A stretch of DNA of 64,000 nt, from NCBI GenBank assembly GCA_021740825.1, contig JAIOZA010000014.1, forward strand, positions 1 to 64,000, given 5' to 3'. Source of the DNA: Bacteroidia bacterium. Its GTDB lineage: Bacteria > Bacteroidota > Bacteroidia > B-17B0 > Aurantibacillaceae. Below, one piece after another: positions 3,640 to 38,169 of the stretch (within the stretch, counting starts at the first letter, position 1; every line of letters begins with the position of its first letter). Position numbers and translations under genes: made by a program. Under the pieces are notes generated by a model that was not told the origin of the DNA, did not search any database, and was given only the letters and a program-made list of their open reading frames with translations.

Positions 3640-4881
3640 TTAAACTAAAAATTGTAATAAATTATCGTTTTTATTAAGATATTCAAATTGAAAGCCTGAC
3701 AATAAAAGATTATTTTTTAGTAAATCTAAATCTTTGTGGTTTTTAATTTCTAAACCAACTAGTGCAGGCCCGTTTTCGCGATTATTTTTTTTCATATATT
3801 CAAAATGTACTATATCATCATTCGGACCCAACACTTCACTTACAAATTCCTTCAGCGCACCTGCTCTTTGAGGAAATCTGATGACAAAAAAATGTTTTAA
3901 GCCTTCAAACAATAATGAGCGTTCTCTAATTTCTTCTGTTCTCATAATGTCGTTGTTACTTCCACTTACAACACACACCACATTTTTACCTTTTAACTCT
4001 TCCTTTAAGTAACCCAAAGAAGCTACAGTTAATGCTCCAGCTGGTTCAACCACAATAGCTTGTTGATTATAAAGATTTAGTATGGTTGTACAAACCCTGC
4101 CTTCGGGAACTAAAACAACCTTACTTAATTTTTGTTTACAAATTTCATAAGTTAAATCACCTACTTTCTTTACCGCTGCGCCATCTACAAACTTATCTAT
4201 TTCTGTTAACTCTGTATTATAACCATTTTCTATGGATGTTTTCATAGATGCCGCACCTTCAGGTTCAACACCAATAATTTGTGTGGAAGGACTCTCCTGA
4301 GAGAAATAACTTACACAACCAGCAGCTAATCCGCCGCCGCCAATTGGTACTAATAAGTAATCTATTTTAAAATCGGCATCTTCAAAAATTTCTTTAGCAA
4401 CAGTCCCCTGACCTTCTATAACTTTTTCATCATCAAAAGGATGAATAAATGCAGCTCCTTTAGCTTTACAAAATTCAACAGCAGCCTTATAAGCATCATC
4501 AAACGTATCTCCTACCAAAATAATCTCGACATGTTCTTTCCCAAATAATTTAACCTGACTAATTTTTTGAGAAGGAGTTGTTGCCGGCATAAAAATTATG
4601 CCTTTAATATTTAATTTACGACATGAATATGCAACGCCTTGTGCATGATTTCCTGCGCTGGCACAAACAACACCATTCTGCTTTTCATAGTCAGTTAATG
4701 AACTTATTTTATTATAGGCGCCTCTAATTTTATAAGAACGCACCACTTGTAAATCTTCGCGTTTTAAATAGACATTGCAGCCAAACTCTTCACTCAATTG
4801 CAAATTATATTGTAAAGGCGTACGCATTGAGATGCCCTTCAAATTTTGACCAGCCTTATTAATGTTATCTAATGACACCAT
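3640..4881 (-). CDS. ilvA: Threonine dehydratase (threonine ammonia-lyase), biosynthetic
   Basis: 413 aa; PLP motif region REDLQVVRSYKIRGAYNK, CASAGNHAQGVA, GGGGLAAG; last gene of the ilv operon. Confidence 0.95.
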   Translation of the reverse strand: MVSLDNINKAGQNLKGISMRTPLQYNLQLSEEFGCNVYLKREDLQVVRSYKIRGAYNKISSLTDYEKQNGVVCASAGNHAQGVAYSCRKLNIKGIIFMPATTPSQKISQVKLFGKEHVEIILVGDTFDDAYKAAVEFCKAKGAAFIHPFDDEKVIEGQGTVAKEIFEDADFKIDYLLVPIGGGGLAAGCVSYFSQESPSTQIIGVEPEGAASMKTSIENGYNTELTEIDKFVDGAAVKKVGDLTYEICKQKLSKVVLVPEGRVCTTILNLYNQQAIVVEPAGALTVASLGYLKEELKGKNVVCVVSGSNNDIMRTEEIRERSLLFEGLKHFFVIRFPQRAGALKEFVSEVLGPNDDIVHFEYMKKNNRENGPALVGLEIKNHKDLDLLKNNLLLSGFQFEYLNKNDNLLQFLV

Positions 4882-4899: not shown

Positions 4900-6369
4900 T
4901 TATCCTATCTTTTTCATTTCTGTCATCGATTCTCTTAACCAAGCTCCAACTTCTTCAATAGGATGATTTCGGATACTTTGATTCACAGAAATCAATAATT
5001 TATTATCAACCGCATTGGAAGTTGCAAAAGACTTTCCAATAACATTAGAATCCACAGTTTTCATAAACTCATTTAATAATGGTTTACAAGCATGGTCAAA
5101 CAAGTAACAACCATATTCAGCCGTATCAGAAATAATTCGATTCATTTCATATAGTTTTTTACGAGCAACTGTATTGGCTATTAAAGGTAATTCGTGTAAT
5201 GATTCGTAATAGGCAGATTCTTCAATGATACCTGATTCAGTCATGGTTTCAAAAGCCAATTCAACGCCTGCTTTCACCATGGCAATCATCAAAACACCAT
5301 TATCAAAATATTCTTGTTCAGAAATAGAGTCGTTAGTTGCAGCAGTTTTTTCGAAATTAGTTTCAGCAGTGGCTGCTCTCCAAGTCAATAAATTAATATC
5401 ATTCTTTGCCCAATCAGCCATCATATTTTTTGAAAATTCTCCAGACAAAATATCATCCATATGTTTTTGAAACAAGGGACGCATGATGTTCTTTAATTCT
5501 TCTGACAATTTAAATGCTTTTATTTTTGAAGGGTTAGACAAACGATCCATCATATTTGTAATTCCCCCGTGCTTCAAGGCTTCAGTAATAGTTTCCCAAC
5601 CATATTGAACTAATTTTGAAGCATAACCAGGTTCAATTCCTTTTTCAACCATTTTATCAAAACATAAAATAGAGCCTGTCTGCAACATTCCACAAAGTAT
5701 AGTTTGCTCGCCCATTAAATCTGATTTTACTTCTGCAACAAATGAAGAATTTAAAACCCCAGCTTTATGACCACCGGTTGCTACCGCATAAGCTTTTGCT
5801 TGAATGAAGCCTTGTCCATTAGGATCGTTTTCCGGATGAACTGCAATAAGCGTTGGTACACCAAATCCTCTTTTATATTCTTCACGAACTTCGGAACCAG
5901 GACATTTAGGTGCACACATGATAACCGTAATATCTTTACGTATTTGCATCCCTTCTTCTACAATATTAAAGCCATGAGAATACGCTAAAGTCGAACCTTT
6001 TTTCATTAAAGGCATAATTGCTTTTACAACGGAAGTGTGTTGTTTATCTGGTGTTAGGTTGCAAACTAAATCAGCTGCCGGAATTAATTCTTCATAGGTT
6101 CCAACTTTAAAACCATTATCAAAAGCATTTGTATAAGAAACTCTTTTTTGAGTTATTGCTTCGGCGCGAAGTGCATAAGAAATATCTAAGCCAGAGTCAC
6201 GCATGTTCAAACCCTGATTTAAGCCTTGAGCGCCGCAGCCAACAATCACAACTTTTTTTCCTTTAAGAGCTTCAATTCCGTCAGCAAATTCTGATTGATC
6301 CATAAATTCGCAAACACCTAGTTGTTCTAACTGCAGTCTGAGGGGTAACGTGTTGAAATAGTTTTTCAT
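4900..6369 (-). CDS. ilvC: Ketol-acid reductoisomerase, class II (long form)
   Basis: 489 aa; [39 protein letters not shown]. Confidence 0.95.
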
Positions 6370-6373
6370 ATTT

Positions 6374-6928
6374 TTATTTATTAAAATGTTTAATTACTGT
6401 TTTACTATTGTTTTCTACTTCTTTTAAAAATGTATTTAATGTTTTCATTGGCTTAGTAATCGCTACTTTTCCGCTTCTTACAAACTCTAACATTCCAAAT
6501 TTTTCTAAATCATTAAAAAGATGTTTAATTTCTCTTTCATCTCCAGTTTTTTCTATCACAATATATTCGGGAGCAATACTTAATATTTTTGCGTGATTTT
6601 CATTTACAATGCGTGTAAACAATTCGTTTTCTTTTAATGCTTCAGAGGAAACTTTATATAAAGCAATTTCTCTACTAATAATTTCGGAGCTTATATGATA
6701 AAATGCTTTAAGTACCTCTACTTGTTTTTCTATTTGCTTTACTAATTTATTAACCTGTTCTTCAGAAACTGTAACGACAATTGTATAGCGATAAATTCCT
6801 TTCATCTCACTTTCGCTTGCAGTGATACTTTCAATATTGATGTGTCTACGAGTAAAAATAATAGTTACCCTAGATAGTAAGCCAATAATGTCTTCTGTAA
6901 ATATGGATATTGTATATGTTGTATTCAT
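6374..6928 (-). CDS. ilvN: Acetolactate synthase small subunit
   Basis: 184 aa; N-terminal ACT domain [34 protein letters not shown]; operon position. Confidence 0.9.
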
Positions 6929-6967: not shown

Positions 6968-8677
6968 TTATTCTAATCGTATTTCGGCAACACTTGCTCC
7001 TGTAGCCACCATTGGAAATACATTTTCTTCGTTCTCAACAACAACCTCTAATAAATAAGCTTCTTTTGACTCGTACATTTCTTGTAATGCCTCACTCAAA
7101 TCTTTTCGCTCAGTTACTTTTTTTCCTTTGATATTATAGCCATTGGCGATGGCCACAAAATTTGGATTTTTCATTTCCGTAAACGAGTAACGCCTATCAA
7201 AAAATAGTTGTTGCCATTGACGAACCATTCCTAGAAAATTATTATTAAGCACAAGTATTTTTACAGCAATATTACTTTGCATAATAGTTCCTAGTTCCTG
7301 TATCGTCATTTGAAAACCACCATCACCTAACACCGTTACAACTTCAGTATTTGGCAGAGCAACTTTAGCACCAATGGCTGCCGGTAAACCAAATCCCATG
7401 GTTCCTAATCCACCAGAGGTTACAAAATAATTTGGAATGTTAGGTTTGTAATAACGAGATGTTATCATCTGATGTTGACCTACATCTGTTACAACTATAG
7501 CGTTACCTTCGCTCAGTTTATGAAATTTATCAATAACCTCCGCCATTAATAATTTATCTGACGTAGGATTAACTGCATGCTTGATTACCTTTTCAAATTC
7601 AATAGTATTACAATCTTCAAAACGTTTTAACCAATCAGTATGTTTAGTAACTTTTATTTTAGGTAATATTAATTCTAAAGCCTCTTTAGCATCTCCTAAA
7701 ACTGCCGCATCAGCAGGAATAATTTTATTTACTTCAGAAGGATCAATTTCAAAATGCACAACTTTTGCTTGTTTTGCATACTTACTTACATTGCCAGTTA
7801 CTCTGTCATCAAAGCGCATTCCAATAGCAATTAAAAGATCACATTCGTTTGTCAATAAATTAGGTCCGTAATTGCCATGCATTCCTAAATACCCAACATA
7901 TAATGGATGTTTTGGAGGAAAGGCTCCTAATCCTAATAAAGTAGAGGCTACTGGGATATTTGCCTTTTCTGCAAAAGCTAATAATTGCTTTTCAGCTCCC
8001 GAAAGTAAAACACCATGTCCGCATAAAATATAAGGTCGCTGAGCGTTATTTATTAATTCAGCAGCTTTTAAAACATCCTCATCCTTAACTTTTGGGCAAG
8101 GAAAATAACTTCTGATGCTTTCACATTTTTCATATTTGTAGGTAGTCTTTCCAAATTGTGCATCTTTTGTAATGTCAACCAAAACAGGGCCCGGTCGGCC
8201 AGAGCTCGCAATATAAAACGCTTTTGCAATTGCTGGAGCTATATCTTCAGCCTTTGTAACCTGTATGTTCCATTTAGTAACGGGCATTGATATACCTACA
8301 ACATCAGTTTCTTGAAAAGCATCGGTTCCTAATAAATGAGAATGAACTTGGCCAGTGATGCAAACCATTGGTGTAGAATCTATTTGAGCATCTGCAATCC
8401 CAGTAATTAAATTTGTAGCGCCGGGTCCTGAGGTTGCCAATACAACTCCTGTTTTTCTGGAAACTCTTGAATAGCCTTGAGCAGCATGCGTTGCGCCTTG
8501 CTCATGACGAACCAAATAATGATTTAGTTGATCCATGTAATCATACAACGCATCATAAACCGGCATGATAGCGCCACCCGGATAACCAAATATATCAGTG
8601 ACTTGTTCGTCAAGCAAAGCTAATATAACGGCTTCGGCACCTGTTACTTCTGTATTATATTTTGTGTGTTTTTTCAT
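6968..8677 (-). CDS. ilvB: Acetolactate synthase large subunit
   Basis: 569 aa TPP enzyme; GYPGGAIMPVYDALY, RHEQGATHAAQGYSR, GDGGFQMTIQELGTI. Confidence 0.96.
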   Translation of the reverse strand: MKKHTKYNTEVTGAEAVILALLDEQVTDIFGYPGGAIMPVYDALYDYMDQLNHYLVRHEQGATHAAQGYSRVSRKTGVVLATSGPGATNLITGIADAQIDSTPMVCITGQVHSHLLGTDAFQETDVVGISMPVTKWNIQVTKAEDIAPAIAKAFYIASSGRPGPVLVDITKDAQFGKTTYKYEKCESIRSYFPCPKVKDEDVLKAAELINNAQRPYILCGHGVLLSGAEKQLLAFAEKANIPVASTLLGLGAFPPKHPLYVGYLGMHGNYGPNLLTNECDLLIAIGMRFDDRVTGNVSKYAKQAKVVHFEIDPSEVNKIIPADAAVLGDAKEALELILPKIKVTKHTDWLKRFEDCNTIEFEKVIKHAVNPTSDKLLMAEVIDKFHKLSEGNAIVVTDVGQHQMITSRYYKPNIPNYFVTSGGLGTMGFGLPAAIGAKVALPNTEVVTVLGDGGFQMTIQELGTIMQSNIAVKILVLNNNFLGMVRQWQQLFFDRRYSFTEMKNPNFVAIANGYNIKGKKVTERKDLSEALQEMYESKEAYLLEVVVENEENVFPMVATGASVAEIRLE

Positions 8678-8684
8678 TTTGAAA

Positions 8685-10358
8685 TTATAAATCAGTTAAA
8701 CAACCTTTACTTGCAGAAGTTACTTGTATAGCGTATTTGTACAACACACCAAATTTTACTTTCAATTCTGGTTGTTGCCATTGTTTTTTTCTTTCTGCTA
8801 ATTCTTCATTTGATAATTGAACATCTATTCTATTATTTATTGCATCAATTTTTATCACATCACCATCTTTTATCAAGGCTATTGGTCCACCATCAAATGC
8901 TTCAGGACTCATATGCCCAACAACAAAACCATGGGTACCTCCAGAAAAGCGACCATCTGTTATTAAAGCCACGCTATTTCCAAGACCAGCTCCAATTAAA
9001 GCAGAAGTAGGTTTTAACATTTCAGGCATTCCAGGCCCGCCTTTTGGGCCTTCATATCTTATCACAACAACTTGACCTGCTTTTACTTTCCCTTCACGAA
9101 TACCAGCAATACATTCAAATTCATTCTCAAAAACAATGGCAGTTCCTTCAAATAATTCCCCTTCTTTGCCTGTAATTTTTGCTACTGAACCTTCTGGGGC
9201 CAAATTTCCATATAGCACTCTTAAATGACCTGAAGCTTTAACAGGATTGCTAATCGGTAGTATCACTTCCTGCCCTTCTTTTAGTCCCGTCGTGCCATCT
9301 GCGTTTTCCTTAACTGTTTTTCCTGTAACCGTTAAGCAATCTCCGTGAAGCATACCCATTTCTAATAAGTATTTCATAACGGCAGGAACGCCACCAATTG
9401 CAAACACATCTTCCATTAAAAATTTACCACTTGGCTTTAAGTTTGCAAGCAATGGGGTACTATCATTTATTCTGGCTATGTCTTCTAACGTAAAATCAAT
9501 ATTGGCAGTTTTAGCAATACCTAGCAAATGCAACACGGCATTTGTTGAACCTCCCAGCGCTACAACGACTGTAAAAGCATTTTCAAATGATTTTTTGGTT
9601 AATATGTCTGAAGGCTTTATATCTTTTTCTAAAAGCACTTTTAAGTACTCTCCAGTTTTCAAACATTCTTCTTTTTTTTCATTGCTTAGTGCTGGGTTAG
9701 ATGAACTATAAGGTAAACTTAAGCCTAACGCCTCAATAGCTGATGCCATAGTATTTGCTGTATACATTCCTCCACATGCTCCAGCTCCAGGACAAGCATT
9801 TTTTATAATTCCTTTAAAGTCTTCTTCGCTTATTTTTCCAGCATATTTTTCGCCTAAGGCTTCAAATGCAGAAACAATGTTAAGTTTTTTTCCTTTATAA
9901 TTTCCAGAAGCAATAGTGCCGCCATATACCATAATTGAAGGACGATTTAATCGAATCATGGCCATTGCCATTCCTGGCATATTTTTATCGCATCCAGCAA
10001 TTGTTATTAAACCATCGTAATAATGAGCAGCAGTAACCGCTTCAACGGAATCGGCAATTATTTCACGAGAAACCAAAGAATACCGCATCCCATCAGTACC
10101 ATTTGTAATTCCATCGCTGATCCCTATGGTATTAAATTGTAACCCAACCATTCCATTTTTACGAACTCCATCTTTTACAAAAATCGACAATCCGTTTAGG
10201 TGCATATTGCAAGTATTCCCTTCATACCAAGTTGAAGCGATACCTACTTGTGGCTTTTTCATATCTTCTTCCGTTAAGCCTATGCCATATAACATAGCTT
10301 GTGAAGCGGGCTGCGATTCATCTTGAGTAACTGTTTTACTGTAGCGATTTAATTCCAT
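8685..10358 (-). CDS. ilvD: Dihydroxy-acid dehydratase
   Basis: 557 aa; [41 protein letters not shown]. Confidence 0.96.
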
Positions 10359-10369
10359 AATAAATTATT

Positions 10370-11260
10370 TTATACAAGTGAAAAATTTCCGTATTCGTTA
10401 AAAGCAACGCGACGTGTGTATTTAGCTTGAAGTATTGCTCCTAAAGAATCTTCCCATTTTAATTTAAAAGGTATTCTATCTAAAGAGGCTATTCCTGCCA
10501 CTTCCGCTGCAGTTCCAGTAAAAAATGCACTATCAGCACCTTTTACTTCTTGTGGTGTAAAATACTTTTCTACCAATTTAAATCCCATTTCGTTGCATAA
10601 TTCAAACATAGTAGCACGAGTAATACCAGGTAAAATATTCCCCAACGGTGAGGTATATAATACTTCGTCCTTTTCAAAAAAGAAATTAGCTCCTGGTCCT
10701 TCTGCAACATTTCCATGTGCATCTAATAATAATGCTTCATCAAAACCTTTTTGTTTAGCCTCAGTAGTGGCTAAAATAGAGTTTACATAATGACCTGTAA
10801 CTTTTGCATCAACATGGCATGATTTAGGATTAGGGCGCTCATAAGAAGATATGGTAACATCCAATAATTTATCTCCCAAATATTTTCCCCATTCCCAAGC
10901 ACATAACATCACATGAACTTCATCTGTAGGAGTAAGCGACATATTAGCGCCTGCAAATATTAAAGGGCGGATGTAGGCATTTCCTAAATTATTTTTCTTA
11001 AGTAATTGATAGGTTAAACTTGTTAGCTCATCAACACTATAATTTACTTTTAAATACATTTTTTCGGCAGAATACAATAAACGTTTATAATGCTCGTCCG
11101 CTTTAAATATTCTTGTTCCATCCGGTGTTTCGTATGAACGGATACCTTCAAATACTCCACTGCCATAATGCATGGTTTGAACATAAGGGCTAACCATTAC
11201 ATCTTTAGCTTTTAGCCATTCGCCATTAAAAAAAACTTCTGTGTCGTTGTTGTAATACAT
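10370..11260 (-). CDS. ilvE: Branched-chain amino acid aminotransferase
   Basis: 296 aa; YGSGVFEGIRSYETPDG, GPGANFFF, GITRATMFELC. Confidence 0.94.
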   Translation of the reverse strand: MYYNNDTEVFFNGEWLKAKDVMVSPYVQTMHYGSGVFEGIRSYETPDGTRIFKADEHYKRLLYSAEKMYLKVNYSVDELTSLTYQLLKKNNLGNAYIRPLIFAGANMSLTPTDEVHVMLCAWEWGKYLGDKLLDVTISSYERPNPKSCHVDAKVTGHYVNSILATTEAKQKGFDEALLLDAHGNVAEGPGANFFFEKDEVLYTSPLGNILPGITRATMFELCNEMGFKLVEKYFTPQEVKGADSAFFTGTAAEVAGIASLDRIPFKLKWEDSLGAILQAKYTRRVAFNEYGNFSLV

Positions 11261-11287: not shown

Positions 11288-11317
11288 ATAAAAAAAGCCT
11301 CCCAGTTAGGAAGGCTT
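11288..11317 (-). terminator. Intrinsic terminator in the leader of ilvE (attenuator terminator)
   Basis: Minus strand AAGCCTTCC-TAACT-GGGAGGCTT followed by TTTTTTTA; 9-bp stem with one G-T wobble, 5-nt loop; lies between the leader ORF and the ilvE ATG. Confidence 0.9.
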
Positions 11318-11345
11318 AATTGTTATCATAACATTATCCTTCCCT

Positions 11346-11393
11346 TCAAGAGATTGAAATAATAATTATGCTATTAATTGATTTGTTTATCAT
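11346..11393 (-). CDS. Isoleucine-rich leader peptide of the ilv operon (MINKSINSIIIISIS)
   Basis: ATG ATA AAC AAA TCA ATT AAT AGC ATA ATT ATT ATT TCA ATC TCT TGA: 7 of 15 codons are Ile, directly upstream of the antiterminator/terminator. Confidence 0.85.
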   Translation of the reverse strand: MINKSINSIIIISIS

Positions 11394-11408
11394 TATTTTA
11401 GTGCGACG

Positions 11409-11416
11409 CAAAATTA
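11409..11416 (-). promoter_or_regulatory. Bacteroidota-type -7 element of the ilv operon leader
   Basis: Minus strand TAATTTTG matches TAnnTTTG, 15 nt upstream of the leader ATG. Confidence 0.6.
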
Positions 11417-11506: not shown

Positions 11507-13465
11507 TTAAAGTTTAACTAGTTTTTGTATAGTAGGTTGATCATTTACTAAAACTTTTAAGAAGTAAATTCCTGCATTTAATTTACTTATATCAAGATTA
11601 ATGGAAGTCATTCCAATATCATATTTATTAGCATCATATTTTTTAATAGTTCGGCCAATTTCGTTTACTATATCTATGCTTACCAATGATGTTTGATACA
11701 ATTTAATATCTAGCACTACATAATCATTACTGGGGTTTGGATATGTGATAATTTCAGAATTTAACTTGCGAGCACAAGCATGCTCAACTGAAATTATTTT
11801 TGAACTAGATGTTTTACCATCAAAATCTTTTTGGGTTAGTCGATAATAGCATGTGACATCTAAGTTATCTTCATCTATATAGCTGTAGTTGTTTATGCGA
11901 CCACTAGCGCCTAAACTTATAACACTTCCAATAGTTTCAAAATCTATTCCGTTTGTAGAGCGTTCAATTTTAAATTCACTATTATTTATTTCAGAGGCGG
12001 TTTGCCAGTTTAAAATAACTTGTCCGTTACTGCATTCGCCTTCAAAACGAGTAAGTTCGATGGGGAGGATAATAAAATTAGTGCAATTTCCAGTAAAAGA
12101 TGGAATAGTTGGACTAGCAAATGTATATGGAGAAGATATATTTGATCCTGCGCCTAACGCGCATGGACCTGATCCTGAATAGGTTATTGTAGGATTACCT
12201 GAATTAGTAATTTTAAAAGTATTGCCAGCACAACTATTTGTGCTTCCACCACCTATATCGATAGCACCAGCGCTAAATGTTGTTTCATTTATTGTTATAG
12301 AAAATTTATTGGAGCCGTTTATTCTAGCCCCAATATCATTTCCGGTAGTTCTTTGACCGGTGTTTCCTGAAAAGCTACAGGAATCTATTTTTAGTGTTAC
12401 ATTTCCACTAGAAGGCGTCAATCCAACGCCGCCAAAACTTGTAGTAGACGCTCCAAAACTTTTATTATCTGATATTTTACATTTCGTTAAAGTCATGGTG
12501 CCACTAACAATTCCTATACCTGCTCCAACATAATACGGCCCACCACTTGTTGAAACTGTATTGCTAAGAATACTTGATTCTCTGATTGTTACATTCCCCC
12601 CATTACAATAAACGCCAGCTCCGCCACCTTGTCCTCCAATATTATTAATAATGGCGCTATTTTTTACATTAACAACGTTTGTGTTATGAATACTATAAAC
12701 ATATAAACCAGCGCCACCGAATGCTGTTTTAGAATTATATGCAATTATTACATTTTGTATAGTTAGATTAATTGCATTACCAATAGCGTCTATACCACCG
12801 CTATAAGATGAGCCTGTGGCGTTACAATTGGAACCGCCTCCTTTCAATAAGACTGTAGAATTTGGGCCTATAGCAATTGCTGCATTTCCATTAGTGCCAT
12901 TATCAAATAAACTAACATTTTCAATTACGACACCTGTCGCATTATAAATTGAAAGCACCTGTCCACCAGTATTAATTCCATTATAAACAGTGCCGCTATT
13001 TGGAGCTCCGCCATAATATTTAGTAAATGTCATGTTTTTAACAGTTGTGTTATTAGCATTAATTTGCATAAAATAATCTGTCCCACCACCATGGAAATTA
13101 TTAGAAAACGTAGTAACTCCCATTCCAGCACCTATAAATGTTAAACCAGAAACAGTAATATTAAATTTACTTTCAGTTGTTACACTTGGAGTTCCCCCTT
13201 TTGCATAAATACCAGCATCAATTTTTATTGTATCGCCAGCAGCAAATGAAGAGCCATATAAAGTAAAGAGGTAAGTTAAAGTTAATACAGGGGTAGAAGG
13301 AGAAAGCCCTCTTCCTACCGAATTTACACCTGTGTAACGCGTTCCTGAAACAATGCAGTATATGTCGTTAGTTGTAAATCCATCATTGACATAATAGTTA
13401 GTAGAGCTTAGTGTGCCAACATTTATGAAATAAAAAGAAATTAGTACAAGTAAATTTTTTGTCAT
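11507..13465 (-). CDS. T9SS-exported right-handed beta-helix-like surface protein with C-terminal sorting domain (type A)
   Basis: 652 aa; signal-like N-terminus; parallel beta-helix-like turns (NTTVKNMTFTKYYGG, GVVIENVSLFDNGTNG); C-terminal TYPNPSNDYVVLDI...LNAGIYFLKVLVNDQPTIQKLVKL. Confidence 0.85.
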   Translation of the reverse strand: MTKNLLVLISFYFINVGTLSSTNYYVNDGFTTNDIYCIVSGTRYTGVNSVGRGLSPSTPVLTLTYLFTLYGSSFAAGDTIKIDAGIYAKGGTPSVTTESKFNITVSGLTFIGAGMGVTTFSNNFHGGGTDYFMQINANNTTVKNMTFTKYYGGAPNSGTVYNGINTGGQVLSIYNATGVVIENVSLFDNGTNGNAAIAIGPNSTVLLKGGGSNCNATGSSYSGGIDAIGNAINLTIQNVIIAYNSKTAFGGAGLYVYSIHNTNVVNVKNSAIINNIGGQGGGAGVYCNGGNVTIRESSILSNTVSTSGGPYYVGAGIGIVSGTMTLTKCKISDNKSFGASTTSFGGVGLTPSSGNVTLKIDSCSFSGNTGQRTTGNDIGARINGSNKFSITINETTFSAGAIDIGGGSTNSCAGNTFKITNSGNPTITYSGSGPCALGAGSNISSPYTFASPTIPSFTGNCTNFIILPIELTRFEGECSNGQVILNWQTASEINNSEFKIERSTNGIDFETIGSVISLGASGRINNYSYIDEDNLDVTCYYRLTQKDFDGKTSSSKIISVEHACARKLNSEIITYPNPSNDYVVLDIKLYQTSLVSIDIVNEIGRTIKKYDANKYDIGMTSINLDISKLNAGIYFLKVLVNDQPTIQKLVKL

Positions 13466-38100: not shown

Positions 38101-38169
38101 GATGGTGTAACTGGCAACACGACTGATTTTGGTTCAGTAGAGTCTAGGTTCGAGCCCTAGGCGGACAAC
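38101..38169 (+). pseudogene. tRNA-Gln (TTG) pseudogene, 5' acceptor strand missing
   Basis: 69-nt copy of 37392-37460 with one mismatch (t to g at 38161); the preceding 7 nt do not pair with GCGGACA. Confidence 0.85.

Follow-up and report, generated by a model that had tools for sequence, protein, structure and literature searches.

In enterobacteria, control of ilv operons by leader-peptide attenuation is textbook knowledge, and the anatomy of the enterobacterial ilvGMEDA, ilvBN and leu attenuators serves here as the basis of comparison. We have investigated a locus in front of ilvE in a 64-kb window (the whole stretch of DNA that was analysed) from a member of the Bacteroidota. It shares with the enterobacterial attenuators a leader ORF enriched in codons for an amino acid that the operon makes, mutually exclusive antiterminator and terminator structures, and downstream genes of the same pathway. 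In contrast to those systems, the window leader is shorter (15 codons), carries isoleucine codons only and follows a Bacteroidota promoter; the unit is compact, with the antiterminator located at the leader stop codon and a weak protector, and does not match an Rfam leader model at threshold.

Branched-chain leader peptides or uORFs preceding ilv genes, similar to the window leader, are described in the relevant passages on Corynebacterium ilvBNC (PMC10272879, PMC11857589) and on Staphylococcus and Listeria (PMC5794164, PMC5864092). These organisms belong to other phyla, and the Staphylococcus leader peptide is described there as leucine-rich, in contrast to the isoleucine-only window leader. 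Within the same phylum, the passages on leaders in a 2021 transcriptome paper on Flavobacterium psychrophilum provide strong clues, derived from the transcriptome and RNA structure, for the same kind of mechanism upstream of amino acid operons (PMC9723704). The main text of that paper has no occurrence of ilv and its passages on leaders, unlike the present study, contain no antiterminator or codon analysis. The original prediction placed an ilv attenuator in a Bacteroidota context; a probable attenuator is present, but given these published clues it is not unprecedented there. A map of B. thetaiotaomicron reports sORFs reminiscent of leader peptides (PMC7366714), and a comparative study of attenuation by Lopatovskaya et al. 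from 2010 is cited in a passage of PMC4833913. The spread of ilv attenuation in Bacteroidota is little documented. Thus, while the mechanism proposed for the window is the textbook one, its spread in the phylum, the occurrence of tandem units and a GTC/ATT bias in the leaders are added here.

Table 1. Features of the leader region and of the ilv operon, in window coordinates.
Feature	Position	Strand	Basis
-7 promoter element, Bacteroidota-type, TAATTTTG (TANNTTTG)	11409..11416	-	read from sequence
Leader peptide ORF MINKSINSIIIISIS, including stop codon	11346..11393	-	sequence and relatives
Possible protector hairpin (1:2)	11327..11370	-	minimum-energy fold without ribosome
Antiterminator strand GGGAAGG, directly after leader stop codon	11338..11344	-	complementarity, relatives, folding
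Intrinsic terminator: 9-bp stem, 5-nt loop, T-run	11290..11317	-	sequence, hairpin -13.8 kcal/mol
ilvE, branched-chain amino acid transaminase, first operon gene	10370..11260	-	NCBIfam
ilvD, dihydroxy-acid dehydratase	8685..10358	-	NCBIfam
ilvB, acetolactate synthase large subunit	6968..8677	-	NCBIfam
ilvN, acetolactate synthase small subunit	6374..6928	-	NCBIfam
ilvC, ketol-acid reductoisomerase	4900..6369	-	NCBIfam
ilvA, threonine ammonia-lyase	3640..4881	-	NCBIfam

The promoter element, the 15-codon ORF with seven isoleucine codons and the terminator named in the original prediction were all found on the minus strand as claimed. The order on this strand is a T9SS-sorted protein gene (13465-11507), which is the 5' neighbour of the leader, followed by TAATTTTG, the leader ORF, GGGAAGG, the terminator and ilvE. 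Translation of the leader, from the ATG at 11393 to the TGA ending at 11346, would proceed through ATG ATA AAC AAA TCA ATT AAT AGC ATA ATT ATT ATT TCA ATC TCT TGA, in which codons 9-12 (ATA ATT ATT ATT, 11369-11358) are the likely sensing codons. As neither a valine nor a leucine codon is present, the window leader should report isoleucine only and not valine. The terminator hairpin consists of AAGCCTTCC-TAACT-GGGAGGCTT at 11317-11295 and the seven T residues occupy 11296-11290, two of them within the stem. The terminator is located where it had been predicted, with the trivial correction that 29 nt, not 27 nt, separate the end of the T-run from the ilvE ATG (11260). The assignment of an isoleucine-rich leader to an isoleucine and valine operon is borne out by the six genes ilvE-ilvD-ilvB-ilvN-ilvC-ilvA, all of which exceed the curated NCBIfam cut-offs and which together make isoleucine and valine.

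Both strands of the window were scanned for micro-ORFs that contain three or more Ile/Leu/Val residues in a row and are followed by a terminator within 60 nt. The 391 ILV-rich micro-ORFs and 9 terminators combined into exactly one pair, at ilvE, and the ilvE terminator ranks strongest among 12 terminator-like sites in the first 20 kb. At 38103-38160 on the plus strand, the window also contains a partial tRNA-like match (38.5 bits, model positions 8-63), not called by ARAGORN, which is possibly a tRNA remnant.

Two elements were absent from the original prediction: the antiterminator GGGAAGG (11344-11338), complementary to CCTTCCT (11314-11308) in the 5' arm of the terminator, and a possible protector hairpin (11370-11327). 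The front of a ribosome lies ∼13 nt past the A site, and this distance was used as the mask in folding the window RNA and in testing spacing. With the ribosome mask at codon 9 or 12, an antiterminator hairpin of -11.7 kcal/mol forms before the terminator 3' arm has been made. A ribosome at isoleucine codon 14 leaves a weak antiterminator remnant (-3.5), and with a ribosome at the stop codon the antiterminator cannot form and the terminator (-13.8) is free to do so. When the full-length leader is folded to equilibrium, the terminator, at -13.8, outweighs the antiterminator, at -11.7, and the switch would therefore depend on co-transcriptional order, as known attenuators usually do. Without a ribosome, the lowest-energy fold pairs the isoleucine codon run (11370-11357), which is arm 1 of the protector hairpin, with a region overlapping the antiterminator, which is arm 2. 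Folding suggests that this hairpin may leave the terminator on; however, across relatives such pairing between codon run and post-stop region is barely better in cis than when swapped (590/10,000 permutations) and thus receives weak support.

Spacing in the window places the antiterminator 4 nt from the stop codon, 25 nt from the first and 16 nt from the last codon of the run. Across all units (100%), the antiterminator begins no more than 13 nt from the A site of a ribosome at the stop codon, a position in which it is masked. It lies at least 13 nt past the last Ile/Val/Leu run codon in 84% and past the first in 100%, positions in which it is free. The features of an attenuator found in the window are an amino-acid codon run, an intrinsic terminator, an antiterminator mutually exclusive with it and the appropriate ribosome spacing.

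From this arrangement we infer that the ilvEDBNCA operon is, very probably, under ribosome-mediated transcription attenuation by isoleucine supply. Transcription would begin just past TAATTTTG and a ribosome would start on the 15-codon leader. With charged Ile-tRNA in good supply, this ribosome would reach the stop codon and cover GGGAAGG, the terminator would form and transcription would stop before ilvE. If charged Ile-tRNA runs short, the ribosome would wait at the ATA-ATT-ATT-ATT run and GGGAAGG could pair with CCTTCCT in the terminator 5' arm, so that no terminator would form and the operon would be transcribed.

IlvE loci were gathered from GTDB genomes and 73 upstream regions, including that of the window, were examined. 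Under fixed criteria, 61 of the 73 have an ILV-rich ORF with a terminator no more than 60 nt behind it; the antisense strand gave 4, and reversed and shuffled sequences gave 0 each. Under stricter criteria 52 units remained, compared with 1 antisense and 0 shuffled. About one sixth of the ilvE loci, as well as most distant Bacteroidota, yielded no unit, in some cases since another gene precedes ilvE or the contig is truncated. A second survey, based on 198 genomes sampled from across the phylum, yielded 89 regions upstream of ilvD. Among the 67 regions whose IlvD has an identity of about 60% or more, 30 contained a unit; among the 22 belonging to a more distant IlvD type, 0 did. The antisense background was 7 of 89 regions. 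Strains of Winogradskyella, Ulvibacter and Roseivirga are among the sources of the loci examined. The upstream reach was 1.5-1.9 kb, such that operons with a first gene farther upstream would be missed. One locus, in a record titled Gammaproteobacteria bacterium (L062), has a Bacteroidota-type ilvE (55% identity) and the same kind of leader (MNLILIIVVIIILLPMR); this contig is probably misbinned, the other explanation being transfer.

Recurrence of the unit bears on whether the hairpin could simply terminate the T9SS gene upstream, with the ilvE promoter located downstream of it and the micro-ORF a chance frame in AT-rich DNA. The upstream gene is indeed on the same strand, ending at 11507, and a poor promoter-like TAATTTTA occurs between the terminator and ilvE. 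However, dozens of genomes have the unit before ilvE or before ilvD while it is rare on control strands, an antiterminator that matches would have no role, and the TANNTTTG promoter element precedes the leader, as it does within 60 nt upstream in 37 of 101 leaders compared with 4.2% of shuffles. We regard this explanation as very improbable and retain attenuation by the leader peptide.

Covariation between the arms was assessed by a swap test, in which the best duplex between the leader-stop region and the terminator 5' arm was computed for each of 103 units. The mean duplex energy was -12.16 kcal/mol in cis, compared with -8.22 (sd 0.23) for swapped terminators and -5.28 for shuffled regions, and the cis mean was reached in 0 of 10,000 permutations. 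Since common descent raises the similarity of the swapped sets, the test is conservative. The stems vary widely (CCTTCC/GGAAGG, CGCCTCGG/CCGGGGCG, GCGCCA/TGGCGC, TGCCTC/GAGGCA, also CCATCC and CTGTATC) yet match, indicating that three segments, the antiterminator and the 5' and 3' arms of the terminator, change together. Sequence and comparison combined thus demonstrate leader, terminator and antiterminator together with their mutual exclusion, spacing and conservation. Two implausible leaders (L102, L161) were left out from the promoter, geometry and codon counts onward. Leader residues across the units are 28% isoleucine, 11% valine and 9% leucine, most relatives mixing isoleucine and valine. 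The proposed ilv attenuator is thus upheld by the recurrence of leader and terminator and by the cis-matched arms, and homologous leaders show both the isoleucine enrichment and, in differing stems, the complementarity for which they were checked.

A terminator governed instead by a trans-acting protein or by an RNA that binds a metabolite or a tRNA (riboswitch, T-box), with the peptide incidental, would also account for a terminator and antiterminator, as both are found in T-boxes and riboswitches. In opposition, conservation falls on the reading frame that contains the Ile/Val run and on how it is spaced relative to a ribosome footprint. No Rfam model, T-box or riboswitch, matched the window leader at threshold, so such control is not indicated, and we give it hardly any credence. 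The best sub-threshold match was Phe_leader (31.9 bits compared with a cut-off of 55); the window leader would work like the amino acid leaders of Rfam (Phe, Thr and others) but is not a member of those families. Action of the leader on ilvE mainly via translation, by coupling or reinitiation, is just as improbable since, although reinitiation at short leaders in Bacteroidetes has been proposed for distances of 11-14 nt (PMC4833913), the leader stop lies 85 nt ahead of the ilvE ATG, a T-tailed terminator occupies the interval, and relatives keep this layout.

In relatives, attenuation by leader peptide appears in a duplicated form as well. Two complete leader-terminator units in series were observed upstream of ilvE or ilvD at 11 loci (L014, L019, L026, L031, L041, L067, L069, L073, L074, L108 and L127), which belong to several lineages as judged by record titles. 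The TANNTTTG promoter element is found upstream of the first unit in 9 of the 11 and between the units in none, and from these sequences both units of each locus look to be on one transcript. Three further loci (L012, L017, L018) have two leaders each, with only the first terminator passing the scan. The window has one unit, and the single unit of its nearest relatives resembles, in peptide and terminator sequence, the first of two tandem units. Among the papers searched, none dealt with amino acid leader attenuators in tandem. The nearest tandem case found is Salmonella mgtCBR, which in the passages describing it (PMC3641672) has two short ORFs per leader, as do the tandem loci; unlike these it is not an amino acid biosynthesis operon, and the comparison applies to the relatives, not to the single-unit window.

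Codon choice in the leaders is markedly biased. GTC makes up 56% (121/217) of leader valine codons compared with 6% in the set of ilvE genes, and ATT 77% of isoleucine codons compared with 39%. Relative to the coding sequence of the same loci, 71 GTC were observed with 9.6 expected and 280 ATT with 166 expected, and the bias survives removal of similar leaders. This preference results in GTCATTATT recurring across distant lineages. Pairing between codon run and post-stop region was considered as the cause of the bias and rejected, being hardly locus-specific (590/10,000), while synonymous recoding weakens this pairing to -4.89 (sd 0.17) from -5.52. A search for isoacceptor content found genes for neither tRNA-Val nor tRNA-Ile(GAT) in the draft genome.

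Other amino acid operons of the same genome (G000, 87.6% complete) were sought by protein family. HisG and homoserine dehydrogenase had no match in this genome, which could be due to draft incompleteness, and neither a single weak HMGL-like match nor a chorismate-binding (trpE-like) locus had a convincing leader. The organism may therefore lack histidine, threonine and perhaps leucine synthesis while the isoleucine and valine operon is kept.

These results extend classic attenuation to a large environmental phylum whose regulation is poorly charted and whose micro-ORFs and RNA leaders of this kind are mostly unannotated; comparison among genomes supports both the antiterminator and the terminator. 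The approximately 100 units, natural tandem attenuators included, are a ready list for tests, and the GTC/ATT codon puzzle makes ideas on tRNA isoacceptors in attenuation testable. There is, in our estimate, an even chance that a large part of the Bacteroidota carries an old, compact family of branched-chain attenuators, in tandem on one transcript in several lineages where both leaders and both terminators would have to be passed, with sensing codons narrowly confined to GTC and ATT, possibly for tRNA isoacceptor sensitivity.
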